Positions 12,993 to 28,856 of a stretch of 64,000 nucleotides of DNA are shown here, piece by piece. Within the stretch, counting starts at the first letter, position 1. The number at the start of each line of letters is the position of its first letter. The position numbers and the translations under genes are program-made. Below the pieces are notes generated by a model. The model was not told where the DNA came from. It saw only the letters and a list, made by a program, of their open reading frames with translations, and ran no database searches. Origin of the DNA: Paracoccaceae bacterium. GTDB taxonomy: Bacteria > Pseudomonadota > Alphaproteobacteria > Rhodobacterales > Rhodobacteraceae. The stretch is from assembly GCA_011389685.1 (NCBI GenBank), contig JAABTV010000005.1, positions 1-64,000 of the forward strand, read 5' to 3'.

Positions 12993-14243
12993 TCAGCCTG
13001 CTTGCCCTGCGGCGTGACGGGCCAGACAGAGGCAGGTGCGGGTGGCGGCGCCCATGTCCTGCACGCTGATCCATTCCAGCGGCCCGTGCAGGTTCTGCAT
13101 GCCGGTGAAGATATTGGGGCAGGGCACGCCCATTTCGGTCAGGCGGGAGCCGTCGGTGCCGCCGCGGATCGGTTCGGAGCGCGGCTCGAACCCCGCCTCG
13201 CGGGTGGCGGCATGGGCGAGTTCGACCGGGGTCATGTCGTCTTCGAGCCAGTAGCGCATGTTGCGGTATTGCGGCGTGATCTCGCAGGTGATGCGGGCGC
13301 GCGGTTCGGTGCTCTGCACGGTGGCGCAGACCTCTTGCAGCAGCGTGCCCTTGGCGGCCAGCCCGTCGCGTTCGAAATCGCGCAGGATGAAATGCAGGAC
13401 CGCCTCGGCAGCGGTGCCCTTCATGTCGGTGATCATGATGAATCCGTCGCGGCCATCGGTGGTTTCAGGGGTCATCGTGGCTTGCGGCAGGGTCTGGACG
13501 ATCTTCGACGCGAGGTGCAGCGCGTTCACCAGCTTGTCCCTGGCGGTGCCGGGGTGGATCGACACGCCCTCGATCTGCACGGTGGCGCCGTCGGCGGAAA
13601 AGGTCTCGTACTCGATCTCGCCCAGTGCGCCGCCATCGAAGGTGAAGGCGAAATCGGCGCCGAGATCGGCGGGCAGGTCGGCGTGGACGCCGCGTCCGAT
13701 TTCCTCGTCCGGGGTGAAGGCGATGCGGATCCGCCCGTGCGGGATGTCGGGGTTCTCCAGGAGGTGGCGCGCGGCGGTCATGATGATCGCGATGCCGGCC
13801 TTGTCGTCGGCGCCCAAGAGCGTGGCGCCGCTGGCGGTGACGATGTCGTGGCCCTCTTTGCTGGCGAGATAGGGGTAGGCATCGGGCGAGAGCACCAGCC
13901 CGGGCGCGTCGGGGAAGGTGATCGAATCGCCCGCATAGGCGCGGTGGACGCGCGGCTTGACGCCGGTCGCATTGAAGGCGGGGGCGGTATCGACATGGGC
14001 GAGCAACCCCATCACCGGCGCGGCGTGATCGACAGTGGCGGGGATCGTGGCCAGCACGGTGCCGTAATCGGTGAGGGTGACATCGGATGCGCCGATGTCT
14101 TGCAGTTCGTCGACCAGCAGGTTGAGCATGTCGAATTGCGCTTGCGTGCTGGGCGATGTGGGCGAGGCCGCGTCGCTCTGGCTGTCGATGGCGGCATAGC
14201 GCAGCAGGCGGGATTCCAGTTCGGCGTCAAACTCGGTTTTCAT
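12993..14243 (-). CDS. pepT: Peptidase T (tripeptide aminopeptidase, M20B)
   Basis: A 416-residue zinc aminopeptidase that releases the N-terminal residue of tripeptides in the cytoplasm. The metal-ligand motif LLAHVDTAP (H83, D85) is present, as are the GADDKAG and TPDEEIGRG motifs with the catalytic Glu pair and the later HPGTARDK region of the dimerisation domain. The length is close to the family norm (about 408). The start at 14243 (MKTEFDAELESRLLRYAAID) is preceded by AAGGAAA; a longer frame upstream reads through the repeat element and is rejected. It is a single gene bounded by repeat elements on both sides. Confidence 0.92.
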   Translation of the reverse strand: MKTEFDAELESRLLRYAAIDSQSDAASPTSPSTQAQFDMLNLLVDELQDIGASDVTLTDYGTVLATIPATVDHAAPVMGLLAHVDTAPAFNATGVKPRVHRAYAGDSITFPDAPGLVLSPDAYPYLASKEGHDIVTASGATLLGADDKAGIAIIMTAARHLLENPDIPHGRIRIAFTPDEEIGRGVHADLPADLGADFAFTFDGGALGEIEYETFSADGATVQIEGVSIHPGTARDKLVNALHLASKIVQTLPQATMTPETTDGRDGFIMITDMKGTAAEAVLHFILRDFERDGLAAKGTLLQEVCATVQSTEPRARITCEITPQYRNMRYWLEDDMTPVELAHAATREAGFEPRSEPIRGGTDGSRLTEMGVPCPNIFTGMQNLHGPLEWISVQDMGAATRTCLCLARHAAGQAG

Positions 14244-14311
14244 GGGGTCGCTTTCCTTGTCGGGTGTTGCCTGCTTTGTCCTGTGGGCGGCAGGCAAGGT
14301 CAAGAGGCGGG

Positions 14312-14506
14312 CTTCGCCCGGAACAGCGGCAAAGCCGCCCGGGCAGCACACGGCCGCCCCGTCGTGCCGGAGGCACGCCTTTGGCGTGACCGGGTGCTTT
14401 CGATGGGTTGCGCATCGCTTCAGGTAGCGGATGACGTTGCAAGATAAACTGCCCAACGCTGACGTTGCGAGCACCCGACCGCGGCCCTGTGCTGCCCTTT
14501 CGTTGG
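14312..14506. repeat. Dispersed TIR-type repeat, copy 2 (longer form)
   Basis: Partner of 2483-2651. The core is bounded by GGGCAGCACACGGCCGC (14341-14357) and its near-perfect inverse GCGGCCCTGTGCTGCCC (14481-14497), 16 of 17 matching. An extra internal palindrome (GTGCCGGAGGCACGCCTTTGGCGTGAC) is absent from copy 1. The right-hand flank GCTGCCCTTTCGTTG recurs at the right edge of the element at 35763-35830. It lies between the divergent pepT and GTA promoters. Confidence 0.85.
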
Positions 14507-14547
14507 GCATCCTGTGAATCTAACTGAGATACACTTGGGAGTTAATA

Positions 14548-14614
14548 TTTCGTAACGAAAACGGTCTCTTAGCGGATCGAGAAATTTGACAGAGCGCGCG
14601 GTCTGGCCTAGCTT
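14548..14614 (+). promoter_or_regulatory. Putative GTA operon promoter with an upstream dyad
   Basis: TTGACA (14586-14591), a 17-bp spacer and TAGCTT (14609-14614) form a strong sigma-70-type promoter with start near 14621. Upstream, TTTCGT-A-ACGAAA (14548-14560) is a perfect dyad centred about 67 bp before the start. That position suits a class I activator; it is a candidate site for the GTA activator GafA or another regulator, which is inference. There is no other plausible promoter before g1. Confidence 0.6.
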
Positions 14615-14621
14615 TCGTGGC

Positions 14622-14657
14622 ATGCTGGACGAGATCGGCAAGCGGCCCCGGGGGTGA
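14622..14657 (+). CDS. Possible 11-residue leader ORF upstream of GTA g1
   Basis: An ATG lies at the predicted transcription start, so the message would be leaderless. The ORF reads MLDEIGKRPRG and its TGA (14655-14657) falls in the loop of the following terminator hairpin. A ribosome translating it would disrupt that hairpin. It may equally be chance in a short untranslated leader. Confidence 0.3.
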   Translation: MLDEIGKRPRG

Positions 14658-14675
14658 CCCCGGCGGCCGTTTTTT
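14643..14675 (+). terminator. Intrinsic terminator between the GTA promoter and g1
   Basis: CGGCC (14643-14647) pairs with GGCCG (14665-14669). CCGGGG (14648-14653) pairs with CCCCGG (14658-14663), with one bulged C and a GTGA loop. Six T residues follow (14670-14675). It is the expected form of a strong terminator and lies about 55 nt after the predicted start and 55 nt before g1. It implies a short terminated leader RNA unless read-through is promoted. Confidence 0.8.
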
Positions 14676-14730
14676 CATGTCCGGCAAGGACGGAGGCAAC
14701 AGGAACTCCAGATGAGGCAGATAAGACCAG

Positions 14731-15081
14731 ATGGCATCAGACCAGAACCGACGCGACCAGGAGCGCCTGCGGCGGGCGCTTGAGGTGGTGGAGACCCAAT
14801 TGCGGGCAATGAAGGGCGATCTGGAGCGGCTGCACAGGCAGATCCGCGCCGGGCAACTGAACGGGCTGACGGATTCGGCCCGGGTCACACAGGAGATCCG
14901 CCAATGGCTGCGGATCGCCATGGAGATGGAGACACGTCTTGAAAAACGATCAACCAGAGAAGACCAGCGGGACAGACCCCGTGCCATTGACCTCGATGCC
15001 GCGAGGACTCGCATCGGGTGCCGCCTGGATCGCCTCAGAAGGGTCAGATGTCCAGGCCGCTTTCCTGAACGAGTTGAGTGA
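14731..15081 (+). CDS. GTA gp1, small terminase-like protein (TerS)
   Basis: A 116-residue protein with a long amphipathic helical N-terminal half (DQERLRRALEVVETQLRAMKGDLERLHRQIRAG) and a basic tail rich in Arg. It is the first gene of the canonical RcGTA order. The R. capsulatus homologue g1 is the GTA small terminase, which works with TerL in head-full packaging of random host DNA. Its last third overlaps the start of g2 in another frame (about 140 bp with the TTG start, 86 bp with the alternative ATG). The ATG at 14731 lacks a strong Shine-Dalgarno. Confidence 0.8.
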   Translation: MASDQNRRDQERLRRALEVVETQLRAMKGDLERLHRQIRAGQLNGLTDSARVTQEIRQWLRIAMEMETRLEKRSTREDQRDRPRAIDLDAARTRIGCRLDRLRRVRCPGRFPERVE

Positions 15082-16351
15082 GGAGGAGCTCTTAGCGCTG
15101 CCCTATCTCTTCGAGTTCTGGGCGCTGGAGCATCAGCTACCGCCCAGGGGCGATTGGCGCACATGGGTGATCATGGGCGGGCGTGGCGCGGGCAAGACCC
15201 GCGCCGGGGCCGAATGGGTGCGGGCATCGGTCGAAGGGTCGGGGCCGCGCGATCACGGGCGCTGTCGGCGGATCGCGCTGCTGGGCGAGACGATCGACCA
15301 GGTGCGCGAGGTGATGGTGTTCGGCGAGAGCGGGATCCTCGCCTGCTCGCCCCCCGACCGGCGGCCCGAGTGGCAGGCCGGACGCAAGCGGCTGATCTGG
15401 CCCAACGGGGCGGTGGCGCAGGTGTTTTCGGCGCATGACCCCGAAGGCTTGCGCGGGCCGCAATTCGATGGCGCCTGGGTCGATGAGCTGGCCAAGTGGA
15501 AGCGGGCGCAGGACACATGGGACATGCTGCAATTCGGGTTGCGGCTGGGCGAGGAACCGCGGGTTTGCGTGACCACGACGCCGCGCAACGTCGGGATTCT
15601 GAAAACCATCCTGGGGAATCCGTCGACGGTGGTGACGCATGCCCCGACCGAGGCCAATGCCGCCAACCTGGCGGCCGGGTTCCTTGACGAGGTCAAGGCG
15701 CGCTATGCCGGGACACGGCTGGGGCGGCAGGAGCTGGAGGGGGTGCTGCTGGAGGATGCGGAAGGCGCGCTCTGGACCGCGACGGCGCTGGAGGCGCTGC
15801 GCATCGAGGCGCCGCCCGAGATGGATCGCGTGGTGGTGGCGGTCGATCCGCCGGTGACGGGGCATGCGGGATCGGACGAATGCGGGATCGTGGTGGTGGG
15901 GGCCGTGACGCGCGGGCCGGTGCAGGATTGGCGGGCTTACGTCCTGGCCGATGCCACGGTGCGCGCGGCGAGCCCGGCCACATGGGCGCGCGCCGCGATC
16001 CGGGCGATGGAGCGGTTTGGCGCGGAAAAGCTGGTGGCCGAGGTGAACCAGGGCGGCGACCTGGTCGAATCGGTGATCCGGCAGGTCGATCCGTTGGTGC
16101 CCCTGAAAAAGGTCCATGCGGCGCGTGGCAAGGTGGCGCGGGCCGAGCCGGTGGCGGCGCTTTATGAACAGGGGCGGGTGCGCCACCTGAAGGGGCTGGG
16201 CGAGCTGGAGGACCAGATGTGCCGGATGACGGTGCAGGGTTATGACGGCAAGGGCAGCCCGGACCGGGTGGATGCGCTGGTCTGGGCGCTGAGCGAGCTT
16301 CTGATCGAGCCGGGGGCGAAATGGCGCAAACCGCAGGTGCGGGCGCTTTAG
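14939..16351 (+). CDS. GTA gp2, terminase large subunit
   Basis: A 470-residue packaging ATPase/nuclease. Walker A GGRGAGKT is at 80-87. The Walker B-type FDGAWVDE ends at D182/E183. The C-terminal RNase H-like nuclease begins at VVVAVDPPVTG (Asp about 303), with a further acidic motif in the GSPDRVDALVWAL region. It translocates about 4 kb of host DNA into GTA heads. The start is uncertain: TTG at 14939 (GGAGA nine bases upstream) or ATG at 14996; both overlap g1. The gene ends 10 bp before a composite palindromic repeat, an unusually large break before g3 in an otherwise compact operon. Confidence 0.93.
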   Translation: MKNDQPEKTSGTDPVPLTSMPRGLASGAAWIASEGSDVQAAFLNELSEEELLALPYLFEFWALEHQLPPRGDWRTWVIMGGRGAGKTRAGAEWVRASVEGSGPRDHGRCRRIALLGETIDQVREVMVFGESGILACSPPDRRPEWQAGRKRLIWPNGAVAQVFSAHDPEGLRGPQFDGAWVDELAKWKRAQDTWDMLQFGLRLGEEPRVCVTTTPRNVGILKTILGNPSTVVTHAPTEANAANLAAGFLDEVKARYAGTRLGRQELEGVLLEDAEGALWTATALEALRIEAPPEMDRVVVAVDPPVTGHAGSDECGIVVVGAVTRGPVQDWRAYVLADATVRAASPATWARAAIRAMERFGAEKLVAEVNQGGDLVESVIRQVDPLVPLKKVHAARGKVARAEPVAALYEQGRVRHLKGLGELEDQMCRMTVQGYDGKGSPDRVDALVWALSELLIEPGAKWRKPQVRAL

Positions 16352-24502: not shown

Positions 24503-24942
24503 GCGGGCGCGACGACATCGTTTGCGCGGCCCGCGGCTGGGTCGGCACGCCCTATCGGCATCAGGCCGCTGTCAGGGGGGCGGGCTGCGATTGCCTGGGG
24601 CTGTTGCGCGGGGTCTGGCGCGAGGTTCTGGGCGCGGAGCCTGAACCGGTGCCGCCCTATTCGATGGACTGGGCCGAGCCGCAGGGCGACGAGCGTTTGT
24701 GGCAGGCCGCGCGGCGGCATCTTGACGAGGTGTCGCCGTCTGACGAGGCGCCGGGTGACGTGATCCTGTTCCGGATGCGCGCGGGGGCGGTGGCCAAGCA
24801 TCTGGGGCTTGCCGCGCACATCGGCCCGGGCGCCACGTTCATTCATTCCTATGCCGGGCACGGGGTGGTCGAAAGCCCGCTCAGCGCGCCCTGGCGGCGC
24901 CGGATCGCGGCGCGGTTCAGATTTCCCGAGGAGGCCAGTTGA
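24499..24942 (+). CDS. GTA gp14, NlpC/P60-type cell-wall peptidase
   Basis: A 147-residue peptidase with the NlpC/P60 Cys motif GAGCDCLGLLRGV and the His motif AKHLGLAAHIG. The substrate side chain is probably peptidoglycan stem peptide, cleaved during DNA entry. In RcGTA it is a structural baseplate component. It overlaps g13 by 4 bp and g15 by 1 bp. Confidence 0.92.
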   Translation: MSGRDDIVCAARGWVGTPYRHQAAVRGAGCDCLGLLRGVWREVLGAEPEPVPPYSMDWAEPQGDERLWQAARRHLDEVSPSDEAPGDVILFRMRAGAVAKHLGLAAHIGPGATFIHSYAGHGVVESPLSAPWRRRIAARFRFPEEAS

Positions 24943-27900
24943 TGGCGACGATACTTCTTTCCGCTGCCGGTGCCGCGATCGGCGGCTCGATCGGCGGCAC
25001 GATCCTGGGGCTGTCGTCGGTGGCAGTGGGCCGTTTCGCGGGCGCCGCGCTGGGCCGGGTGATCGACCAGCGCGTGATGGGCGCGGGTTCGGACGCGGTT
25101 GAGACCGGGCGGGTCGAGCGGTTCAGACTGACCGGCGCGGGCGAGGGCGACCCCGTCGCGCAGGTCTTTGGCCGGATGCAGGTTTCGGGCCACGTGATCT
25201 GGGCGACGCGGTTTTCCGAGAGCGTGACGGTCACGGGCGGCGGCAAGGGCGCCACGCGCCAGCCCGAGCGGCGCGAGTTTTCCTATTCGGTTTCGCTCGC
25301 CATCGCGCTGTGTGAGGGTGAGATCACCGGCGTGGGCCGGGTCTGGGCCGACGGGACCGAGATCGCGCCGGATGACCTGAACATGCGGGTCCATCGCGGC
25401 ACGCGCGACCAGTTGCCGGATGCCAAGATGGAAGCGGTCGAGGGGGCGGGGCAGGTGCCCGCCTATCGCGGCACGGCCTATGTGGTGATCGAGGATCTGC
25501 AGCTTGGCGCGTTCGGCAACCGGGTGCCGCAATTCACTTTCGAGGTCATGCGCCCTGCACAGCCGGGGGGGGGCGATGCGGACGAGGATATGGCCCACGG
25601 TATCCGCGCCGTGGCGATGATGCCGGGAAGTGGCGAATACGCGCTGGCTACGACGCCGGTACATTTCTCGCACGGGCTGGGCAAATCGACGCTGGCCAAC
25701 GTGAATACGCCCGCGGGCAAGACGGATTTCGCGGTGTCGGTCGAGCGTCTTGGCATCGAGGTGCCGAATTGCGGTTCGACATCGCTGATCGTGAGCTGGT
25801 TCGGCGACGATCTGCGCTGCGGCGACTGCACGATCCGGCCCAAGGTCGAACAGGCGGAGTTCGACGGCAGCGAAATGCCGTGGAGCGTGGCGGGCGAGAC
25901 CCGGGCCAGCGCCGTGCCCGTGGCGCGCGATGCGAATGATCGCCCGGTTTACGGTGGCACACCTGCCGATGCCTCGGTGATCGAGGCGATCGAAGCGTTG
26001 ACCGCCGCCGGTCAGGACGTGGTGTTCTATCCGTTCATCCTGATGGACCAGATGGGGGGCAACACGCTGACCGACCCCCATAGCGGCGAGGAGAGCCAGC
26101 CGGCTCTGCCATGGCGGGGGCGGATCACCACCTCGCTTGCGCCGGGCGTGGCGGGCAGCCCCGATGACACGGCCGCGGCTGATGTAGAAGTGGCCGATTT
26201 CTTCGGCACGGCGCAGGCGTCGGATTTCGCGATTGCGGCGGGCGCCGTCAGCTATTCCGGCCCGGCCGAATGGCGCTATCGTCGCTTTATCCTGCACCAG
26301 GCCGCGCTCTGTGCCGCCGCCGGCGGTGTCGATGGCTTCTGTATCGGCTCGGAAATGCGTGGGCTGACACAGATCAGGGGCGCAGGCGGGTTTCCGGCGG
26401 TGCAGGCGTTGCGCGATCTCGCCGCCGAATGCCGCGCGATCCTCGGGGTGGATACGAAAATCGGCTATGCTGCTGACTGGTCGGAGTATTTCGGCTATAA
26501 CGCGCCGGGGGGCGACCGCTATTTCCATCTCGATCCGCTCTGGGCGGATGACAATATCGACTTTATCGGCATCGACAATTACATGCCGCTGTCGGATTGG
26601 CGCGATGGGCGGGACCACCTCGATGCGCAGGACTGGGCCTCGATCTACGATCTCGACTACCTGCAATCGAACGTCATGGGCGGCGAGGGGTATGACTGGT
26701 TCTATCATTCGCCCGAGGCCCGCGCGGCACAGATCCGCACACCCATCACCGATGGCGCCCATGATGAGCCGTGGATCTGGCGGGTGAAGGACATCGCCAA
26801 CTGGTGGCGCCTTGCCCATCACGAGCGTATCGGCGGGGTGCGGCAGGAAGAGCCGACCGACTGGGTGCCGATGTCGAAACCGATCTGGTTCACCGAACTG
26901 GGTTGTGCTGCGATCGACAAGGGCACCAACCAGCCCAACAAGTTTCTCGATCCCAAATCCTCGGAATCGGCGATCCCCTATCATTCGAACGGGCGGCGCG
27001 ACGAGTTCATCCAGATGCAGTATCTGCGCGCGATGACACGGTTCTGGACTGATCCGGCCAACAACCCGGTGAGCCCCGAATACGGCGGGTCGATGGTGGA
27101 CATGTCGCGTGCCCATGTCTGGGCCTGGGATGCGCGGCCCTATCCGTTTTTTCCGGGCAATGCCGCGCTCTGGACCGATGCGGCCAATTATGCGCGCGGG
27201 CACTGGATCACGGGGCGGGTGTCGGCGCGCGCGCTCGCTTCGGTGGTCGAGGAAATTTGCGCCCGTGCAGGGTTGAGCGATATCGACGTCTCAGAGCTCC
27301 ACGGTGTGGTGCGCGGCTACACGGTGCCGGATGTGGGCGATGCGCGCACGGCGTTGCAGCCCCTGATGCTGGCCCAAGGTTTCGACGTGGTCGAGCGTGA
27401 CGGGGTCTTGCGTTTCTCGATGCGCGACGGGGTTGAGGACCGGGCGCAGGATGCCGCCACGCTGGTGGCCCATGACGAGATCGACGGCGCGGTCGAACGC
27501 AGCCGCGCCGCCGAGGCGGAACTGGTCGGGCGGGTGCGGCTGCGTTTCGTGCAGGCGGATGCGAATTTCGATGTGCTGGCCGAGGAGGCGGTGCTGCCCG
27601 ACGAGGCGACCCATGCGGTGGCCAGCAGCGAACTGCCCATCGCGCTGACCCGCGCCGAGGGGCGGCAGGTGGTCGAACGCTGGCTGTCCGAATCGCGAGT
27701 GGCGCGCGATGGCTTGCGCTTTGCGCTGCCGCCCTCGCGGCTTGATGTCGGGCCGGGCGATGTGCTCAGGCTTGACACCGACGCGGGCGGCGACCTCTTG
27801 CGCGTTGACCGGGTCGAACTGGGCGCGTCGCAGATCGTCGAAGCGGTGCGGATCGAGCCCGAGACCTATCAACCCTCCGACATTGATGAGGACGGCGTGC

Positions 27901-28856
27901 AGCTTGGCGAGTTTGTGCCGCCGGTGCCGGTGTTCCCGTTGTTCCTCGACCTGCCGCTGATGAGCGGCGCGGAACATCCCCATGCGCCGCATCTGGCGAT
28001 CACGGCCGATCCCTGGCCCGGGTCGGTCGCGGTCTTTGGCTCCGACAGCGACAGCAACTATGCGCTCGACCGGATCATCGCGGCGCGGGCCACGGTCGGG
28101 GTCACGCAATCGCCGCTGGTGGCGGCGCGCGCGGGGTTGATCGACCGGGGCGACGGAGTGTTGGTCGAGCTGACATCCGGCCAGTTCGAATCGGTTGACG
28201 ACCTCGCCCTGCTCAACGGCGCGAACCTGGCCGCGATCGGCGATGGCAGCGCCGAAAACTGGGAGCTGTTCCAGTTCCGCGATGCCGAGCTTGTGGGGCC
28301 GAACACCTATTTCCTGCGCCACAGGTTGCGCGGGCAACTGGGCAGCGACGCATGGCAACCCCCGGTCTGGCCCGCGGGATCCTATGTCGTTCTGTTGAAC
28401 GGGGTGCCGGATCAGATCGGCCTGTCGCCGGCACAGCGAAACCGCGCCCGCCACTACCGGATTGGCCCGGCCCGGCGCGCCTATAGTGACCCGTCCTATG
28501 TCCACCGGGTCTCGGCGTTCTCCGGCGTCGGGTTGAAACCGCTCAGCCCGGTGCATCTGCGCGCGACGCAGGAGGCGGGCGATCTTGCCTTGCGCTGGGT
28601 GCGGCGCACCCGGATTGATGGCGACAATTGGGACGGGATCGACGTGCCGCTGGGCGAAGAGCGCGAAAGCTATGTGGTGCGGGTGATGCAGGGCGGGACG
28701 ATCCTGCGCGAAGAGCAGGTGAACGCGCCCGAATGGACCTATGCGGCAGCCGCGCAGGCTGCCGACGGGGTCAGTGGTGCGACCGACCTTGCGGTGGCGC
28801 AGGTCTCGGCGATCTACGGGGCGGGGGCCTTCGGAACGCTGACGGTGACGCTCTGA
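24942..28856 (+). CDS. GTA gp15, large baseplate/host-recognition protein ('megatron')
   Basis: A 1304-residue protein. It has a hydrophobic Gly/Ala-rich N-terminus (ILLSAAGAAIGGSIGGTILGL), then a large glycoside-hydrolase-like TIM-barrel domain (about 320-760) carrying GYAADWSEYFGY, DNIDFIGIDNYMPLSDWRDG and WFTELGCAAIDKGTN. Phage-tail modules with repeated beta-rich segments follow to the C-terminus. It makes the baseplate tip and spike. The GTA-TIM fold is conserved, but whether it still cleaves glycan is unknown. GAGGAGG precedes the ATG. It ends the operon, 4 bp from a convergent gene. Confidence 0.93.
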   Translation: MATILLSAAGAAIGGSIGGTILGLSSVAVGRFAGAALGRVIDQRVMGAGSDAVETGRVERFRLTGAGEGDPVAQVFGRMQVSGHVIWATRFSESVTVTGGGKGATRQPERREFSYSVSLAIALCEGEITGVGRVWADGTEIAPDDLNMRVHRGTRDQLPDAKMEAVEGAGQVPAYRGTAYVVIEDLQLGAFGNRVPQFTFEVMRPAQPGGGDADEDMAHGIRAVAMMPGSGEYALATTPVHFSHGLGKSTLANVNTPAGKTDFAVSVERLGIEVPNCGSTSLIVSWFGDDLRCGDCTIRPKVEQAEFDGSEMPWSVAGETRASAVPVARDANDRPVYGGTPADASVIEAIEALTAAGQDVVFYPFILMDQMGGNTLTDPHSGEESQPALPWRGRITTSLAPGVAGSPDDTAAADVEVADFFGTAQASDFAIAAGAVSYSGPAEWRYRRFILHQAALCAAAGGVDGFCIGSEMRGLTQIRGAGGFPAVQALRDLAAECRAILGVDTKIGYAADWSEYFGYNAPGGDRYFHLDPLWADDNIDFIGIDNYMPLSDWRDGRDHLDAQDWASIYDLDYLQSNVMGGEGYDWFYHSPEARAAQIRTPITDGAHDEPWIWRVKDIANWWRLAHHERIGGVRQEEPTDWVPMSKPIWFTELGCAAIDKGTNQPNKFLDPKSSESAIPYHSNGRRDEFIQMQYLRAMTRFWTDPANNPVSPEYGGSMVDMSRAHVWAWDARPYPFFPGNAALWTDAANYARGHWITGRVSARALASVVEEICARAGLSDIDVSELHGVVRGYTVPDVGDARTALQPLMLAQGFDVVERDGVLRFSMRDGVEDRAQDAATLVAHDEIDGAVERSRAAEAELVGRVRLRFVQADANFDVLAEEAVLPDEATHAVASSELPIALTRAEGRQVVERWLSESRVARDGLRFALPPSRLDVGPGDVLRLDTDAGGDLLRVDRVELGASQIVEAVRIEPETYQPSDIDEDGVQLGEFVPPVPVFPLFLDLPLMSGAEHPHAPHLAITADPWPGSVAVFGSDSDSNYALDRIIAARATVGVTQSPLVAARAGLIDRGDGVLVELTSGQFESVDDLALLNGANLAAIGDGSAENWELFQFRDAELVGPNTYFLRHRLRGQLGSDAWQPPVWPAGSYVVLLNGVPDQIGLSPAQRNRARHYRIGPARRAYSDPSYVHRVSAFSGVGLKPLSPVHLRATQEAGDLALRWVRRTRIDGDNWDGIDVPLGEERESYVVRVMQGGTILREEQVNAPEWTYAAAAQAADGVSGATDLAVAQVSAIYGAGAFGTLTVTL

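Follow-up and report, generated by a model that had tools for sequence, protein, structure and literature searches.

The GTA cluster and its leader in the window

The window, the whole stretch of 64,000 nt analysed here, carries a GTA operon preceded by a predicted promoter and a predicted intrinsic terminator (Table 1). Pfam and NCBIfam models identified terminase, portal, protease, HK97-type capsid, tail completion and megatron among the genes tested, and the g15 megatron (NF048004) identified the operon as an RcGTA-type cluster. The gene at the g1 position itself matched no Pfam or NCBIfam model. Matches of the window terminase to phage records were all below 60%.

Table 1. Features of the GTA leader and operon in the window, with positions counted from its first nucleotide.
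Feature	Position	Strand	Remarks
Perfect dyad TTTCGTAACGAAA	14548..14560	.	Not conserved beyond the genus among the relatives compared
GTA cluster promoter	14586..14614	+	-35 TTGACA 14586-14591, 17-nt spacer, -10 TAGCTT 14609-14614; family PWM
Spacer with CGnnCGGTC (gagCGCGCGGTCtggcc)	14592..14608	+	Proposed GafA C-domain binding element
Conserved initial transcribed sequence	14622..14642	+	Family consensus CA[T/A]GCTGGAAGAAGTGGGCAAG
Candidate leaderless 11-codon ORF	14622..14657	+	Judged not functional
Intrinsic terminator (predicted)	14643..14675	+	11-bp bulged hairpin 14643-14669 and T6 14670-14675
GTA g1 position, first gene of the operon	14731..15081	+	ATG at 14731; relatives via tblastn
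GTA g2, large terminase	14939..16351	+	Terminase_6N/6C
GTA g15, baseplate megatron	24939..28856	+	NCBIfam NF048004, 1916.8 bits; Pfam GTA_TIM

The preliminary description had noted TTGACA-N17-TAGCTT, a hairpin followed by six T before g1 and an ATG at +1, all of which can be read directly in the sequence, as can the eleven codons whose stop lies in the loop (ATG CTG GAC GAG ATC GGC AAG CGG CCC CGG GGG TGA). The predicted +1, A14622, is also the A of this ATG. The hairpin has 11 pairs, one bulge and a GTGA loop, and the 56 nt from 14621 to 14676 fold at -33 kcal/mol (z -3.88), a value equalled by none of 200 shuffles. Generic scans of the window reported no promoter at the GTA leader and did not list the leader hairpin, the latter probably because of its bulge. 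The -10 agrees with TATAAT at just three of six positions, so that on this single sequence the predicted promoter rests on TTGACA; the call is secure once relatives are compared. The R2 covariance model matched the window leader with 83.3 bits over 14586-14680. The hairpin is unlikely to serve as the terminator of an upstream gene, as pepT (12993-14222) points the opposite way and the promoter lies in between.

Conservation of the leader in Rhodobacteraceae

The window g2 was used as a query against 198 Rhodobacteraceae genomes, one per genus, and found a match at E ≤ 1e-60 in 173. The upstream DNA of 147 g2 regions was analysed; three further genomes left out of this set (G089, G182 and G186) all gave strong R2 matches. 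With a PWM trained on the same regions that it scores, and counting by the -35 to -10 part alone at a score above 12, a promoter was found in 108 of the 147 regions, with a spacer of 17 nt in 108/108. The reverse strand gave no match above the cut-off (best 11.5). The promoter takes the form TTGAC, a 17-nt spacer usually with CGnnCG, then TA. TTGAC is near invariant (107/108 genera), and CGnnCG stands at a fixed place in the spacer in 90/108, each of its four bases being present in 89-100%.

A hairpin with dG ≤ -10 followed by a T-tract was found in 103 of the 108 promoter-scored regions, which belong to related genera and are not independent events; the stem reached dG ≤ -18 in 92. An earlier count with the first version of the matrix, which was 75 nt long and overlapped the hairpin, gave 104/108, with the hairpin ending 44-61 nt past the predicted start. 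The same hairpin finder scored 19/324 shuffles, 2/108 reverse strands and 11/324 places elsewhere in the same kb (2-6%), and with the finder left unused TTTT stood at the expected place in 97/108 regions vs 8/108 in a control window. The hairpin position is not chance, and the hairpin and T-run seen in the preliminary description are thus kept in relatives. For the 39 regions without the promoter, a looser rule gave eight with a variant promoter and terminator, four with a TTGA-type promoter and no terminator, and 27 with neither.

The conservation has sharp borders. In 10-nt bins, information was 0.03-0.10 bits per position upstream and 0.22 in the last 10 nt before the -35, rose to 1.3 in the 10-nt bin that opens the -35 stretch, stayed at 0.35-1.0 on to the T-tract, and fell to 0.21, 0.14 and then below 0.13 past it. 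The initial transcribed sequence had 0.6-1.3 bits at most positions, vs the 0.03-0.10 of the upstream flank. Because conservation is bounded by the -35 and the T-tract, the promoter, spacer, initial transcribed sequence, hairpin and T-tract appear to be under selection as a single unit.

RNAalifold on a MAFFT alignment gave just three pairs, and the stem structure was supplied by hand for the pairing analysis. The stem bears compensatory changes. Stem cells were paired in 82.7% vs 73.7% in shuffles, covariation was 0.309 vs 0.171, and two-sided stem cells numbered 95 vs 38, each value being reached by 0/500 shuffles. The number of pairs with two-sided change (9 vs 7.6, reached by 106/500 shuffles) did not stand out. 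Sliding the 3' side of the stem lowered pairing to 41.5-56.5%, an excess that is partly built in because the structure was derived from the same sequences.

Across whole genomes, the R2 model at E ≤ 0.01 matched in 152 of the 198 family genomes, and a match of at least 38 bits was found in 131, one in each; in the genus of the window, the leader was present in 3/3 genomes searched, that of the window included. In a class-wide sample, 45/289 genomes had a match at E ≤ 0.01, and just two family genomes and G250 exceeded 30 bits, the G250 match also lying before a g2 homologue. The remaining matches, including those of two further family genomes, were weak and often covered the hairpin part alone.

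A separate set of 80 named loci came from a scan that started from the capsid of R. capsulatus and may in part duplicate species of the training set; 75 were searched, and five with short upstream DNA (L224, L242, L248, L255 and L261) were left out. The leader was matched in 74/75, L250 having none, and the terminator was present in 72 of these 74. Of the two exceptions, L244 has a hairpin whose T-tract is short, and L274 is that of Roseovarius spongiae, matched at 25 bits. In Rhodobacteraceae bacterium QY30 (L235, 5058-5149), the match lies about 0.9 kb before the capsid gene, vs about 4 kb in most named loci, possibly through deletion of early GTA genes.

GafA and the proposed role of the leader terminator

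Rhodobacter capsulatus SP108 and DSM 1710 carry the complete promoter-leader-terminator unit, in which the hairpin begins at about +21, the run of six T ends close to +49 and g1 follows about 93-100 nt past the start. In this species GafA is reported to bind one of five probes only, a 50-bp fragment 76-125 bp before g1 that includes the predicted -10 and start, backed by RNA-seq (PMC6363796). The C-terminal domain of GafA has been assigned to this fragment, and the N-terminal part is reported to bind specifically to the flanking fragments on both sides (PMC9638019). Laid on the SP108 sequence (not that of SB1003), the probe begins in or beside the -35, ends at roughly the last positions of the initial transcribed sequence and covers the region of the spacer element, which puts the published start upstream of the hairpin. 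A g1 transcription start past the terminator would have spoken against the preliminary description; the published R. capsulatus start precedes the hairpin.

The window genome encodes a protein with DUF6456 (GafA) at residues 247-383 and an N-terminal helix-turn-helix. DUF6456 was found in 178 of the 198 family genomes and in one of 14 controls, Caulobacter vibrioides, where the match is taken from the literature to be GafZ. A strong leader was present in 128/178 genomes with DUF6456 vs 3/20 without (p 1e-6), both of which also track the presence of a GTA.

GafA has been presented as an activator in contact with the omega subunit of RNAP (PMC9638019). The Caulobacter protein GafZ, a homologue of the C-terminal portion of GafA, is reported to antiterminate at terGTA after the first gene; it was found with elongating RNAP and lets RNAP pass terminators, and an element between the -35 and -10 is critical for its binding (PMC11150451). 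Tran and Le 2024 raised the possibility that GafA might have an unrecognised antitermination activity, with no Rhodobacter target terminator named in the sections covered here (PMC11150451). In the open-access listings and passages covered, no promoter-proximal terminator is described for Rhodobacter-type GTAs, and the stem 'terminat' has 0 occurrences in the main text of either Fogg 2019 or Sherlock and Fogg 2022. GafZ-type antitermination of a GTA is already known; what appears to be new is the conserved terminator before the first gene in Rhodobacteraceae.

The anatomy found here is that of Q-, AlpA- and GafZ-type control, with a conserved element between the -35 and -10 (a putative binding site), a terminator before the first gene, and a dedicated regulator related to a proven antiterminator through DUF6456. 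The proposed spacer element would be the counterpart of the Caulobacter ZBE and the Pseudomonas ABE. The likeness to GafY/GafZ of Caulobacter crescentus covers an RcGTA-type cluster, a homologous regulator and an element between the -35 and -10, and by analogy would extend to terminator bypass. The systems differ in that Caulobacter terGTA follows the first gene and consists of three 150-bp GC-rich repeats, whereas the Rhodobacteraceae terminator is short, intrinsic and before the first gene, and in that GafA is one protein as against GafY and GafZ. The -35 is near consensus in Rhodobacteraceae but degenerate in the GafY-dependent Caulobacter promoter, a near-consensus version of which is reported to be GafYZ-independent and about sixfold weaker (PMC11150451).

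Pseudomonas aeruginosa AlpA also acts through an element between the -35 and -10, with an intrinsic terminator that begins 54 nt (alpB) or 26 nt (PA0807) past the start, and, as reported, belongs to a lysis programme that runs in a subset of cells (PMC7969949). The motifs differ: GGGACGN5GGTA of AlpA with at most one mismatch occurred in 0/108 leaders, and with N6 in 6/108, a count that has no chance control; the likeness noted here is one of anatomy. Q of the lambdoid phage 21 has its binding element in the late promoter and a terminator downstream of it, but requires that the initial transcribed region hold a -10-like pause element (PMC6606751). A search of the Rhodobacteraceae leaders did not find one: matches at ≥ 4/6 occurred in 3/108 (shuffles 14%) and at ≥ 3/6 in 44/108 (shuffles 42%). 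A further likeness is to the Bartonella GTA, reportedly controlled by antitermination to judge by the title of Korotaev et al. 2025, and said to be chimeric, of diverse phage origin. With GafZ at Caulobacter terGTA (PMC11150451), it makes the statement in the preliminary description that no such control had been described for GTAs out of date.

The best reading of the leader, which we consider probable, is default termination near +53 that is relieved by GafA. RNAP starting at 14622 would normally stop at the hairpin and free an RNA of about 53 nt. Once GafA is made, presumably when the host regulatory network permits, its C-terminal domain would bind the element between the -35 and -10, the exact site being proposed here on the basis of the known fragment binding in R. 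capsulatus. By analogy with GafZ, GafA may then load on RNAP and make it resistant to the leader terminator and later ones, and read-through would allow the operon of about 14 kb to be transcribed. The conserved terminator suggests that GafA works at least partly by letting RNAP run through. In addition, because the -35 is near consensus here and degenerate in Caulobacter, the comparison suggests that initiation may not need GafA. GafA has so far been described as an activator, and the conserved terminator offers a candidate antitermination target across much of the family, R. capsulatus included; a termination switch could also explain how a lethal operon is kept silent in most cells. The preliminary description had proposed default termination with read-through by antitermination, an activator or leader translation. 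The conserved promoter-proximal terminator fits read-through by the activator, and it is control by leader translation that falls away, as set out below.

A bolder form of this reading, for which we see somewhat less than an even chance, is that the Rhodobacteraceae GTA promoter fires in every cell, with silencing mainly at the elongation step. The terminated RNA of about 50 nt would then be made by all cells, GafA would be essentially an antiterminator, expression in few cells would be set at the termination switch, and the spacer element and GafA would co-evolve lineage-specific specificities.

It is unlikely that the hairpin is a passive brake that ends leaky transcription while GafA recruits RNAP for initiation only, strong induced initiation overriding incomplete termination. 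The published contact of GafA with omega and the weak -10, which matches TATAAT at five of six positions in only 16/108 regions, would suit such a brake, but the near-invariant TTGAC, set against the degenerate -35 of the GafY-dependent promoter and the GafYZ independence of its near-consensus version, and the strength of the stems argue against it.

We consider it very improbable that the hairpin is a 5' mRNA element that controls the stability or translation of g1, a second hairpin at the g1 ribosome site included, and no terminator. A second pair, CTCGTGCGG..GCATGAG, does lie between the terminator and g1, near the g1 start, in 38/108 genera, and in R. capsulatus the leader forms additional structure with sequence downstream of it; however, the second hairpin is not general, and the T-tract right after the stem is conserved, whereas a stabilising hairpin would need none. 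Near the g1 start, TCGTGCGG was also observed in 47/108 genera and 51/74 named loci. The window is without the second pair.

There is a very small chance that the leader is a gene for a conserved trans-acting sRNA, expressed from its own promoter and ended by its own terminator, with the RNA of about 53 nt as the functional product. The unit resembles an sRNA gene, its 5' part is conserved, and the leader persists in genomes whose GTA is largely deleted (see below). On the other side, there is one strong copy per genome, 17 of 21 strong R2 matches outside the training set lie before a recognisable GTA g1 or g2 (the others being L180, L190, L192 and L194, with L157 counted from the class-wide sample), and Rfam 15 over 14300-14800 gave no family (highest score 21 bits, cut-off 45).

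Attenuation by ribosomes translating the leaderless ORF is refuted as a general mechanism and has next to no probability, since the ATG at +1 and the stop in the loop seen in the window recur in one of two other same-genus genomes but the other lacks a stop in the loop, 56/108 genera have no ATG near +1, and the lengths of the frames scatter. The same scatter and missing ATG led us to reject a conserved leader peptide, and no conserved reading frame was found in the initial transcribed sequence across the 108 regions.

Rearranged loci, other alphaproteobacteria and upstream DNA

In ten genera, the leader and g1 precede an in-frame fusion of g2 (to residue 184) with g15 (from about residue 644), and g3-g14 are absent (L179, 616-3048; L157; L183-L189; L191; genomes G043, G055, G070, G079, G092, G104, G137, G139, G140 and G144). 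The leader is well conserved in these genera (mean 78 bits) and is thus not strictly tied to a working GTA. A capsid search found none in seven of them and capsids of 30-36% identity, taken as unrelated, in three. The codon-level junction, AWxDE|xGC.A.D.G.N, is identical in all ten, with little DNA shared at the junction, and identity to the window varies by genus (64-85% for the g2 part, 48-75% for the g15 part); neither recurrent deletion nor one spreading allele explains the shared junction easily. An intein as the cause of the split g2 was ruled out by the in-frame fusion with g15. A search of viral contigs with the junction returned at least 80 loci; among the matches listed none spans the query in full, and most of them cover the g15 side and start close to the junction, so that the fusion was not confirmed in this second collection. 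Other rearrangements that start inside g2, at loci L181, L182 and L193, join residue 154 to g15 residue 1191 (G111), g2 184 to g2 366 (G030) and g2 185 to g9 78 (G193). L190 (G095) and L192 (G141) keep the leader, but the 3 kb or so that follow gave no match to any GTA gene searched for.

Outside the family, 65 loci were picked by a g2 homologue alone, a choice that does not imply the GTA status of each. Promoter-proximal terminators on the forward vs the reverse strand numbered 22 vs 19 at dG ≤ -12, 16 vs 10 at -15 and 14 vs 6 at -18, a small excess. They were found, with other spacer sequences, in groups f13 (3/3) and f135 (2/2) and as single cases in f53, f96, f101 and f107. The three f13 loci sampled (L302, L303 and L316, from another alphaproteobacterial family) all share a different promoter-like site, TTGACA..GTCACGCT, and a strong terminator. 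Palindrome-like spacers were also seen in other lineages, between the putative -35 and -10 in L087 and L051 (CGCGAATTTCGCG) and in L282 and L284 (GGATTTTCGAAAATCC); the element may have diverged together with the GafA/GafZ domain.

The dyad centred at about -67 had been offered in the preliminary description, and TTTCGTAACGAAA is present in the window; its conservation did not hold, since it is partly kept in one of two same-genus genomes and absent from eight other relatives compared. Some perfect 6-bp dyad occurs upstream in 25/108 regions, the window included, at varying places, and this scatter rules out the -67 dyad as a conserved operator. A motif search of the upstream DNA of relatives gave no clear single motif. 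GTTAA/TTAAC was observed within 0-120 nt upstream of the -35 in 64/108 regions vs 5/108 in the next 120 nt. It resembles CtrA half-sites, or the excess may simply reflect lower G+C there. In R. capsulatus, CtrA reportedly does not bind to the GTA promoter (PMC6363796). Just upstream of the GTA promoter, at 14400-14510, the window also contains an interspersed repeat of about 110 bp, which recurs in at least 39 further places in the window genome at 79-93% identity (among the best 40 of 121 candidates scored).
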